A stretch of 64,000 bases of DNA from Halobacillus yeomjeoni. GTDB lineage: Bacteria > Bacillota > Bacilli > Bacillales > Halobacillaceae. This document shows positions 29,506 through 43,996 of this stretch, one piece after another; the first letter of the stretch is position 1, and the number at the start of each line of letters is the position of its first letter. Location: assembly GCF_020171525.1 (NCBI RefSeq), contig NZ_JAIVAI010000001.1, forward strand, positions 868,001 through 932,000, written 5' to 3'. Made by a program: the position numbers and the translations under genes. A model generated the notes under the pieces. It worked only from the letters and a program-made list of their open reading frames with translations, had not been told where the DNA came from and did no database searches.

Positions 29506-29898
29506 TTAATTCCCACCTTTAATGACAGATTGCAGACTTCTGAACTTTCCATTCATCCGGTCCGCAAGTGCCTGATAATAAATTTGGTTCTGGGCCAAAT
29601 CATTCATCTCTTTATCAATGTCGACATTGTTTCCATTGTGGTTGTAGGTAGTGCCCGGTCTTGTCATCGTACGGTATGAGGATTCATGCCCTCTTTGAAA
29701 GTCTATGTGCCTCGGGTCTGTCCGCTTTGCAGGCAGTGTCGAAAGTTCACGATTGAGAACATCTTTAAAGACCACATTTTTCGCCTTATACCCCGGCGTA
29801 TCGACGTTAGCTATATTGTCCGATATGGCACGGTTCTTAGCTGAAGAATAATCTAAAGATCGCTCCAAAGCTGTGAATGTGTCATTAAATAACTTCAA
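29506..29898 (-). CDS. flgB: Flagellar proximal rod protein FlgB
   Basis: First gene of the fla/che operon; a rod subunit of 130 aa. The N-terminal ISDNIANVDTPGYKAKNVVF motif and the C-terminal helix (IYYQALADRMNGKFRSLQSV) are typical. Translation starts at a TTG (29898) behind GGGGGAG, a weak start for the head of a 28-kb operon. CodY is encoded just upstream on the same strand. Confidence 0.96.
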   Translation of the reverse strand: MKLFNDTFTALERSLDYSSAKNRAISDNIANVDTPGYKAKNVVFKDVLNRELSTLPAKRTDPRHIDFQRGHESSYRTMTRPGTTYNHNGNNVDIDKEMNDLAQNQIYYQALADRMNGKFRSLQSVIKGGN

Positions 29899-30171
29899 AG
29901 GAACTCCCCCATTTCCGAAATTATCCTTTACTACTTCTCTTAAGTTTAAAAAAATTTGTTCATTATTGTCTACGAATTGATAAAAATTTTAACAAGAGTA
30001 TAACAAACAATTCTTTCGAACTAGTTCGATTTACCTTGCGTTTTTCCACCCTGTTCCAAGCGTCGAAAATACTACTATAGTGAACATTATTACACACTTT
30101 CATGTCGAAATAAATCAGTTTTCAGACTATTTTATGAAAAAATCAATTTAATGATAAGGATGGGATAATTT
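29899..30171 (-). promoter_or_regulatory. Upstream control region of the fla/che operon
   Basis: AT-rich non-coding DNA without a gene. A perfect 14-bp palindrome TCGAACTAGTTCGA lies at about 30015-30028, next to a TATACT that could be a -10. A CodY-box-like 15-mer with three mismatches to AATTTTCWGAAAATT lies at 29942-29956 (minus strand). I see no convincing SigD-type promoter and cannot name the start site with confidence. Confidence 0.4.
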
Positions 30172-30250
30172 ATGTATTTGGCTCTGTTAAAGTTTAGTGT
30201 TGATATACCCATCAAAAAAAGAAACCATTACGAAATGTTTTTTGCGTGTA

Positions 30251-30368
30251 GGGCTCCGGGAAAAGGTTCGCTTTCCATGGGGCGGGCGCTGAGTCTCCTC
30301 AGGCTTCGCCTTCCGGGGCCTCACCTGTCCCACACGTCCCATAGGAGTCTCACCGTTTCCCTCCGCCC
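30251..30368 (-). repeat. GC-rich hairpin repeat, copy A
   Basis: About 118 bp, inverted relative to copy B. Read on the minus strand it runs GGGCGGAGGG, GAGACTCCTATGGGA, then GAGGAGACTCAGC and GGAAAGCGAA. The two ends are partly complementary, but with mismatches, so this looks like a decayed copy. Confidence 0.85.
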
Positions 30369-30551
30369 TTTGCTTCATCAGAGTGCCTCGAAACAAGATC
30401 TTTTAAAAGAAATACTTCATCTTGATGGGAGGAAGTATAAAATCTTAAAACCTAAATGCTGTGTGTCATTCTCTTAGGAGTGGCATAAGGACCGAACAAC
30501 CTTGATAATAGGTCTTTTTTTACGTAGATGTCACGGATTTTATCATGCAAA

Positions 30552-30679
30552 GGGCGGAGGGGAATCGGGAGACTCCTGCGGGAAGAAAGTGCTTGGTGAG
30601 ACCCCACAGGACGAAAAGTCCGAGGAGGCTCACCGCGCTCCCGCGGAAAGCGAGTGATTTCCCCCCCCCGCCCCTCCGC
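30552..30679 (+). repeat. GC-rich hairpin repeat, copy B
   Basis: About 128 bp. It shares GGGCGGAGGGG, GGGAGACTCCTGCGGGA, GAGGAGGCTCACC and CCGCGGAAAGCGAG with the other copies. The terminal stem is interrupted by a C9 run at 30661-30669. Copy A lies 183 bp to the left in opposite orientation. Confidence 0.88.
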
Positions 30680-30833
30680 ACATATCGATATAAACTCTTC
30701 AACTATTATGTGCTTATTTTGAAGACTAAATATCAACAATCAACATTAACAGAGCCATGTATTTAAAATGAAGCTTTTGTAAAGTGGTGCAGCTTATTAA
30801 CACTTCCTTTTGTTGAATTTATCAGAGCAAACA

Positions 30834-30862
30834 AAAAGCCGCTCCTGAATGAGCGGCCTTTT
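30834..30862 (-). terminator. Terminator of the xerC-hslVU-codY operon
   Basis: GGCCGCTC pairs with GAGCGGCT across a 6-base loop and is followed on the minus strand by a T-run; an A-run on the other side makes it bidirectional in form. It separates codY from the fla/che operon. Confidence 0.9.
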
Positions 30863-30870
30863 TTCAACTA

Positions 30871-31650
30871 TTAGTTGGAACGGAGTTTCTGCAGTTCCAG
30901 TAGGAAGTTGTTGTTCAATACTTTGATATAAGTTCCCTTCATTCCAAGAGAGCGGGATTCGATGACACCTGCACTCTCAAGTTTACGCAATGCGTTTACA
31001 ATGACAGAACGAGTGATTCCTACGCGGTCAGCTACTTTAGAAGCTACTAGTAAACCTTCGTTGCCTTCAAGTTCTTCAAAGATATGCTCGATAGCTTCCA
31101 ACTCACTGTAGGATAGAGAACTGATAGCCATCTGTACGACAGCTTTGTTACGTGCTTCCTGCTCAATTTCCTCCGTCTTTTCATGTAGGATTTCCATGCC
31201 GACTACGGTTGCACCATATTCAGCAAGTAGTAAATCATCTTCATTGAAGTTCGTATCCAGGCGGCTCAGAATCAATGTACCCAGACGTTGTCCCCCTCCA
31301 ATGATCGGAACGATTGTGGTAAGACCATTTTCAAACAGGTCACGGTTTTCTACAGGGAAAGCCGTGTACTCACTGTTGATATCAATGTCTGGAGTCGTTT
31401 CTTTGATGTTGAACAAGTTTTGAGTGTACTCCTGTGGGAAACGACGCTCGGAAAGCATTTCTTTCATACGCTCATTTTCAATCTCCTGGTTGATAGCGAA
31501 ACCTAACAGCTTACCACGGCGGCTGAGGACGAACGTGTTCGCCTCGATGACATCACGCAGGGTCGCTGACATGTCATTGAAGTCCACCGACTTTCCAGTT
31601 GTTTTCTGTAACATCGCGTTGATTCTTCTTGCACGGTCTAATAATTTCAT
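30871..31650 (-). CDS. codY: GTP- and branched-chain-amino-acid-sensing repressor CodY
   Basis: Global regulator that binds DNA when isoleucine, leucine or valine and GTP are plentiful and represses nitrogen, competence and motility genes. The N-terminal GAF domain (about residues 1-155) carries the effector pocket; the C-terminal winged helix-turn-helix is at about 203-222 ([20 protein letters not shown]). Length 259 aa is exact for the family. Last gene of xerC-hslV-hslU-codY, directly upstream of fla/che, which CodY represses in B. subtilis. Confidence 0.98.
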
Positions 31651-43426: not shown

Positions 43427-43499
43427 TCTGTACTTTAGCACTCTACTTTAAAGGGCAAAGTCAAATAATGATGAACGGGTTTTCCCTTCATCTATGCCG

Positions 43500-43620
43500 G
43501 GGATGGTCGGGAACAACTCGCTTTCCTGCGGGGAGGCGGCAAGCTTCCTCGGCTACGCCTGTGGGATCTTGCCTAGCCCCTTCTCCCGCGGGAGTCTCGC
43601 TGCTTCCCGCCCGTCCCTTC
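43500..43620 (-). repeat. GC-rich hairpin repeat, copy C
   Basis: About 120 bp, oriented opposite to copy D. On the minus strand: GGGACGGGCGGGAAGCAGCG, AGACTCCCGCGGGAG, CCGAGGAAGCTTGCC, CCCGCAGGAAAGCGAG. The ends are imperfectly complementary. Same family as copies A, B and D. Confidence 0.86.
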
Positions 43621-43813
43621 AGAGTAAGTATAAACCCTTCTCTATAAAAAGCGGATTCGGCTGTTCTATAGCCATGGATTGATGGCCCAGGAAGCAGACC
43701 ACTATCCAGTCAACGCAATCATAATTTATATCATTACTTCCTGCACAGTTAACGTATCTTCAATAAACATGCTGAATCATTCTTGATAGATGCTTTATTT
43801 GAGTACACTTTGA

Positions 43814-43932
43814 GGGAGGGAAGGGAAAACAGTTATACTCCTGCGGGAAGTGCAGGTTAGGCGAGACCCCGCAGTGCAACGAGGAGGCTCGGCAGCTGCC
43901 CGCGGAAAGCGGACTGTTTTCCCTTCCCTCCC
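43814..43932 (+). repeat. GC-rich hairpin repeat, copy D, with perfect 20-bp terminal stem
   Basis: Bases 43814-43833 (GGGAGGGAAGG... ACAGT) are the exact reverse complement of 43913-43932, so the 119-bp unit closes on a perfect 20-bp stem. The interior contains ACTCCTGCGGGAAG, GCGAGACCCCGCAG, GAGGAGGCTCGGC and CCGCGGAAAGCGG, which allow further stems. It is the best-preserved copy in the window; copy C lies 193 bp to the left in the other orientation. Confidence 0.9.
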
Positions 43933-43996
43933 GGTACCGTAAAAAATATTAGTAAAATGCTTTAACGACAAACCTAAAAACTTTATTAAAAAATAT

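Follow-up and report, generated by a model that had tools for sequence, protein, structure and literature searches.

A probable IS1595-family MITE with a pair of strand-polar hairpins as cargo between codY and flgB of Halobacillus yeomjeoni

The window analysed here is a 64,000-nucleotide stretch of the Halobacillus yeomjeoni genome in which codY (30871-31650) and flgB (29506-29898), both read leftwards, have between them a 577-bp element at 30180-30756 with an exact copy of ATGTATTT on either flank (Table 1). The element ends in 27-bp terminal inverted repeats that agree at 24 of 27 positions (left 30180-30206 against the reverse complement of 30730-30756). Both this agreement and the duplicated ATGTATTT at the borders had been described in a first-pass annotation and were reproduced from the sequence; scoring with a covariance model (R1) also recovered the two oppositely oriented hairpin repeats noted there. 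No transposase is encoded within the 577 bp, the longest overlapping open reading frame being 101 aa. The element is short, non-coding and present in many copies, with paired ends and a target duplication, so that its earlier description as a MITE stands; the DDE_Tnp_IS1595 transposase that an autonomous IS1595 element encodes is absent from it.

Table 1. Coordinates of the element, its parts and its immediate context in the window.
Feature	Position	Strand	Remarks
Left target-site duplication, ATGTATTT	30172..30179	.	
Left IS1595-type terminal inverted repeat	30180..30206	+	24/27 against right end; ends common to IS1595 elements
Structured hairpin repeat, copy 1, minus-strand sense	30242..30371	-	Covariance model R1, 107.3 bits
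Interior spacer between hairpins, without gene	30372..30548	.	Aligns weakly with unit interior in congeners
Structured hairpin repeat, copy 2, plus-strand sense	30549..30679	+	R1 123.4 bits, against 13.3 on the other strand
Right IS1595-type terminal inverted repeat	30730..30756	-	24/27 against left end
Right target-site duplication, ATGTATTT	30757..30764	.	
Terminator-like site downstream of codY (context)	30833..30862	-	
Promoter-like site upstream of flgB, in congener-like block (context)	29943..29972	-	Resemblance by eye

The copies that the first-pass annotation had left to be counted are numerous. The genome (3.27 Mb in 15 contigs, 98.5% complete) contains 102 sites within three mismatches of a 25-nt end pattern, and reversing the pattern leaves no such site. 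Among 78 opposed end pairs in the loci examined, the eight flanking bases are identical in 32 at the exact register; at none of 12 shifted registers does this hold for more than one pair. The 32 exact duplications are 95% A+T. When two mismatches were allowed in the ends, 57 elements of 104-581 bp had duplications with no more than two mismatches, and four control words (one reversed, three shuffled) gave none in those loci, which total 447,733 bases with overlapping stretches included twice. The loci were chosen by matching ends or hairpins, which makes the setting a biased one and the 57 a lower bound. Together, the end-pattern, register and control-word counts rule out a chance origin of the element. 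With many copies here and full-length elements in other Bacillales, it is also excluded that no other element shares these ends.

Among the 40 of 150 candidates that were scored, four places besides the window copy match it over at least 402 bases at 94-95% identity; C3:46857-47427 holds a fifth copy, whose match is split into three pieces. The interior between the hairpins of this copy (L052 2358-2924, C3:46857-47423) is opposite in orientation to its flanks, as expected from recombination between inverted hairpins. About 0.8 kb past the end of the window lies a 550-bp element (G000:C1:932793-933342) with the same ends, a duplication with one mismatch and hairpin sequence inside. Several of the contigs C3, C4, C6, C7 and C8 start or stop within or near the element.

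To which family the ends belong is answered by the transposases found between them. The IS1595 domain PF12762 occurs in 15 of 101 relatives, and of 19 PF12762 loci examined, five (L071, L073, L075, L085 and L087) have paired ends of the same type with an exact 8-bp duplication; a further one (L086) has such ends and a duplication with one mismatch. Transposase similarity between paired ends, together with a duplication (at most one mismatch), was found in 12 of 51 named loci with the 25-nt end. Five of those 12, from five Bacillales genera, match over 348-349 aa and have exact 8-bp duplications; the longest open reading frame from Met is 349 aa in Texcoconibacillus (L264), Halobacillus sp. A1 (L265) and Salinibacillus (L283), 326 aa in Terrilactibacillus (L266) and 361 aa in Allobacillus (L288). 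A full-length insertion sequence with the same ends, for which the annotation had proposed a search, is thus at hand, and it is an IS1595 element (five genera, 326-361 aa). L265 and L085 are apparently one and the same element (1999 bp, identical duplication), whose transposase at L085 scores 205 bits with the NCBIfam IS1595 model NF033547 and also matches PF12762. Because the same ends flank IS1595 transposases in several Bacillales genera, those of the window element are, judged by sequence, IS1595-type; the 8-bp duplication is a second feature that it shares with this family.

The annotation had instead called the ends IS6-like. IS6 elements make 8-bp duplications and start with GG, which speaks for an IS6-family MITE, but in several genera it is IS1595 transposases (PF12762, NF033547) that these ends enclose, and the IS240/IS6 domain PF13610 was undetected in the genome. 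On this basis IS6 membership was dropped in favour of IS1595, and we consider it highly improbable.

PF12762 was likewise undetected in the H. yeomjeoni genome. The genome does hold a decayed 1079-bp IS1595 element (L044 3538-4616, G000:C2) with an exact duplication and a broken transposase N-terminus, which is 82.7% identical to the L085 element over 307 nt. Inside this decayed element are also one hairpin and a 118-aa lipoprotein-like open reading frame that matched nothing in NCBIfam or Pfam. The absence of a transposase is provisional, since the assembly reaches 98.5% completeness with its 15 contigs, and this repeat is found at the ends of several of them; an intact copy of the insertion sequence could sit in an assembly gap.

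The hairpins were modelled from an alignment (A1) of 31 copies, namely the window copy and 30 of 35 representatives (L037, L143, L158, L160 and L187 were excluded as truncated or chimeric-looking). The resulting covariance model contains 36 pairs, 24 of them with compensatory change. The observed covariation score of 0.476 compares with 0.203 for shuffles, none of 500 of which scored as high, and with no more than 0.112 for slid versions. These controls overstate the difference somewhat: the copies are related to one another, and it is from them that the structure was taken. Given the size of the gap, the hairpin structure itself is hard to doubt. The hairpin is also strand-polar: the right-hand window copy, itself one of the 31 sequences used to build R1, scores 123.4 bits on one strand and 13.3 bits on the other, and the hairpins at a Thalassobacillus locus (L261) score 118-128 against 33-36 bits. 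Outside the pairs dominated by G-T, G-T pairs outnumber A-C mismatches by 36 to 11, although related rows and the preference of RNA folding for G-T both bear on this comparison. The strand-polar scores and the excess of G-T over A-C point to selection on a single strand, as RNA or ssDNA.

Some elements of about 290 bp, for example L158, L160 and L169, have a single hairpin that looks like a chimera of both types; these are possibly fold-back deletions. The idea that the unit contains divergent promoters was dropped, as its interior scores little differently from base-shuffled controls. A promoter scan of the window gave 8 promoter-like sites against 2.1 expected, and the best interior score in the 26 elements with two hairpins reached 9-10 of 12 matches in 6 of 26, against about 4.6 in the control; the three interior scores of 10 come from related copies, the window element included.

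The hairpin is widespread. By the covariance model, run with stricter filters and a ceiling of 17 scored candidates per genome, it is present in 158 of 199 related genomes. A strict hairpin pattern has 84 matches in the H. yeomjeoni genome and none in the control; within the class it is found in 16 of the 299 genomes. At the Rfam gathering score, six hairpin loci yielded an L21 leader (in L261) and no family for the hairpin, which rules it out as a known Rfam family at that score; in the window stretch, matches up to E = 5 included none inside the hairpins, and a sub-threshold GcvB match (E 0.11) touches the final 10 bases of the right-hand one. The window itself has a second inverted hairpin pair at 43493..43938, minus then plus (95.9 and 101.8 bits with R1), with no IS1595 ends seen around it in the stretch read and with neighbours that we take, from their proteins, to be rnhB-like and ylqF-like genes. 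Four tandem 45-nt repeats in register, with 60-71% identity to the first copy, lie at 1646-1825 of the window. We found no description of the hairpin, or of IS1595 MITEs in Bacillales, in the portions of the literature within our coverage, outside which most subscription journals fall. Annotating so abundant and covariation-supported a hairpin would account for much of the sequence between genes in this group of genomes.

How the hairpins relate to the ends was assessed in 54 elements, made up of 52 end pairs (an overlapping pair at L143 was dropped from 53), to which the window element and a copy degenerate at one end were added. Two hairpins are present in 26 of them, one in 21 and none in 7; all 26 with two have the order minus then plus, facing outward, the matches in L191 being short and close together. 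The hairpin also occurs in 29 of the 34 elements from loci picked by their ends alone. Of the 84 strict-pattern hairpins, 42 lie inside elements with a duplication, 10 in an end pair without one and 32 in neither, so the association with IS1595 ends is not obligatory.

The hairpins outside such ends were examined in congeners. At 20 congener loci, which were taken from the best hairpin matches and therefore give biased proportions, the pair is present in the same outward orientation in 18, and in 11 of these 18 its hairpins hA and hB are 94-97% and 82-93% identical, respectively, to the window copies. Paired IS1595 ends were found at none of the 20, with single end-like sites in L226 and L230. 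The congener units have ends of their own: 27 of 30 distinct units have one A-type and one B-type end. Direct repeats of at least five bases, as a target duplication would leave, flank no more than 2 of 30 at any register tested, and the best 4-base register (6 of 30) falls inside the conserved ends. When the window element is aligned to these A/B-ended units, both hairpins are shared and the outer ends are not. A candidate A/B end remnant in the window element, read by eye, was rejected, since its best matches (5-6 of 18 mismatched) are no better than those elsewhere in the element. At the Thalassobacillus locus L261, IS1595 ends with an exact duplication enclose a hairpin pair that retains the shared A/B end motif with 1 of 18 mismatches on the left and 3 of 18 on the right; there the B-type end is found at 4 of 23 mismatches and the A-type end at 6 of 21.

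These observations bear out the word cargo used in the first-pass annotation: in congeners the pair also occurs outside IS1595 ends and with its own ends, and L261 encloses a unit with end remnants. That the hairpin pair is cargo is well supported, and most likely it entered IS1595 ends and multiplied with them. Who captured whom is something we infer, because no hairpin was seen inside the element at any of the 16 loci whose paired ends enclose transposase similarity, but the decayed 1079-bp element of H. yeomjeoni has one between its outer ends. The hairpins might alternatively be the original internal part of an IS1595 MITE, the units outside such ends being decayed MITEs that have lost them. 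This would account for the 52 of 84 strict-pattern hairpins between paired IS1595 ends and for the frequency of hairpins in the elements (47 of 54 with at least one, and 29 of 34 where loci were picked by ends alone), but it is unlikely given that the congener pair has well-defined A and B ends (27 of 30), that an IS1595 end pair was seen at 0 of 20 congener loci, apart from the single end-like sites in L226 and L230, that L261 holds both kinds of ends, and that the hairpin is found in 158 of 199 related genomes against 15 of 101 for the IS1595 transposase. A bolder version of the cargo reading, which we put forward tentatively as a real possibility rather than as our expectation, is that the hairpin pair is a genetic element in its own right: a widespread unit of outward-facing, strand-polar hairpins, selected as single-stranded RNA or ssDNA, with its own ends and no target duplication, that hitch-hikes in IS1595 transposons. 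If so, a structured repeat would be spreading by a separate route of its own and also as the cargo of DDE transposons.

A mobiliser for such a unit could be sought in the Y1/HUH transposases of these genomes, which would make the hairpin a REP-like repeat moved by a RAYT-like enzyme. Y1 transposase matches occur in 17 of 22 genomes of the genus, and A/B-ended units without detectable target duplication are what single-strand transposition would leave. Repeats of the REP/RAYT kind flank the RAYT gene, however, and at 30 Y1 loci (of 33 matches listed) the hairpin is nearby at one, neither end pattern, A- or B-type, is present in full at any, and the shared 18-nt motif (at most three mismatches) occurs singly at two (L196 and L219). 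RAYT is therefore rejected as the mobiliser on present evidence, and we regard this origin of the hairpin as improbable. At L201 (about 1021-1204), a repeated GGGGACGGTTC-like motif that is unlike the hairpin lies next to a RAYT-like gene and is perhaps that gene's own REP.

The site of insertion raises the question of a role in gene expression, and the first-pass annotation had suggested that the element may insulate or alter transcription of the motility operon. An insertion selected for such regulation would fit the position between codY and flgB and the hairpin repeats in the same spacer of 3 of 21 congeners (L117, L122 and L136). Against it, codY is closed ahead of the element by its own terminator-like site (30862-30833), the congener-like block upstream of flgB lies beyond the element and is uninterrupted (a resemblance judged by eye), similar elements are scattered across the genome, and 18 of 21 congeners have no hairpin in the spacer at E up to 0.05. 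We found no evidence for the suggested effect; the anatomy speaks against a strong one on the motility operon, which is probably unaffected, and selection for such a role seems very unlikely. As 3 of 21 congeners have hairpins there, the spacer tolerates such insertions. The empty site with a single ATGTATTT that the annotation had looked to in close relatives was not found among 20 congener spacers, those of all 21 congeners but L137, none of which was alignable at the site by eye.

We conclude that 30180-30756 is very probably a non-autonomous IS1595-family MITE, presumably mobilised in trans, with a nested strand-polar hairpin pair as cargo. An IS1595 transposase would have acted in trans on the ends of the element, giving the 8-bp duplication of AT-rich targets; the two-hairpin unit, which also exists outside these ends, most likely became nested inside them and would then have multiplied together with them. 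Because no transposase domain was detected in the genome, the element is probably stranded in H. yeomjeoni, unless a transposase copy lies in sequence missing between the contigs. Bacterial MITEs are frequently taken to be deletion derivatives of a single insertion sequence. The element is a MITE of a known family, and its cargo is unusual and well supported: a separately existing structured repeat lies inside insertion sequence ends in two genera, and one copy still has both kinds of ends. The nested hairpin pair thus provides a specific example in which the spread of structured repeats can be studied.

Known systems resemble parts of this arrangement. In the sections of the literature available to us, IS1595 members usually make 8-bp duplications and the related Merlin elements end in GG (PMC8101967), and the IS1595 element ISApl4 makes AT-rich 8-bp duplications (PMC12561309). 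The window element shares with IS1595 insertion sequences the AT-rich 8-bp duplications and the same 27-bp ends, but it has no transposase and an interior of two hairpins, and it has about 27-44 bp at the ends in common with full-length elements. REP/BIME repeats with RAYT also form inverted hairpin pairs, and the A/B-ended units resemble them in having no target duplication; however, the unit here is about 130 bp, against the 20-40 bp given for REPs in the sections available of PMC3733652, and the hairpin is found at 1 of 30 Y1 loci. The Bacillus halodurans family Bhal-1, made up of 74-bp stem-loops (PMC2267715), is by its description a similar intergenic stem-loop repeat of a Bacillus relative and might be the core of this hairpin. 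Finally, bcr1 of the Bacillus cereus group, RUP, NEMIS, EFAR and ERIC are named as MITEs in the available sections of PMC3733652 (bcr1 also in those of PMC2267715) and, as described there, are likewise dispersed, non-coding and structured; by the same descriptions, what differs here is that a separately occurring hairpin pair lies inside the ends of a known insertion sequence family.
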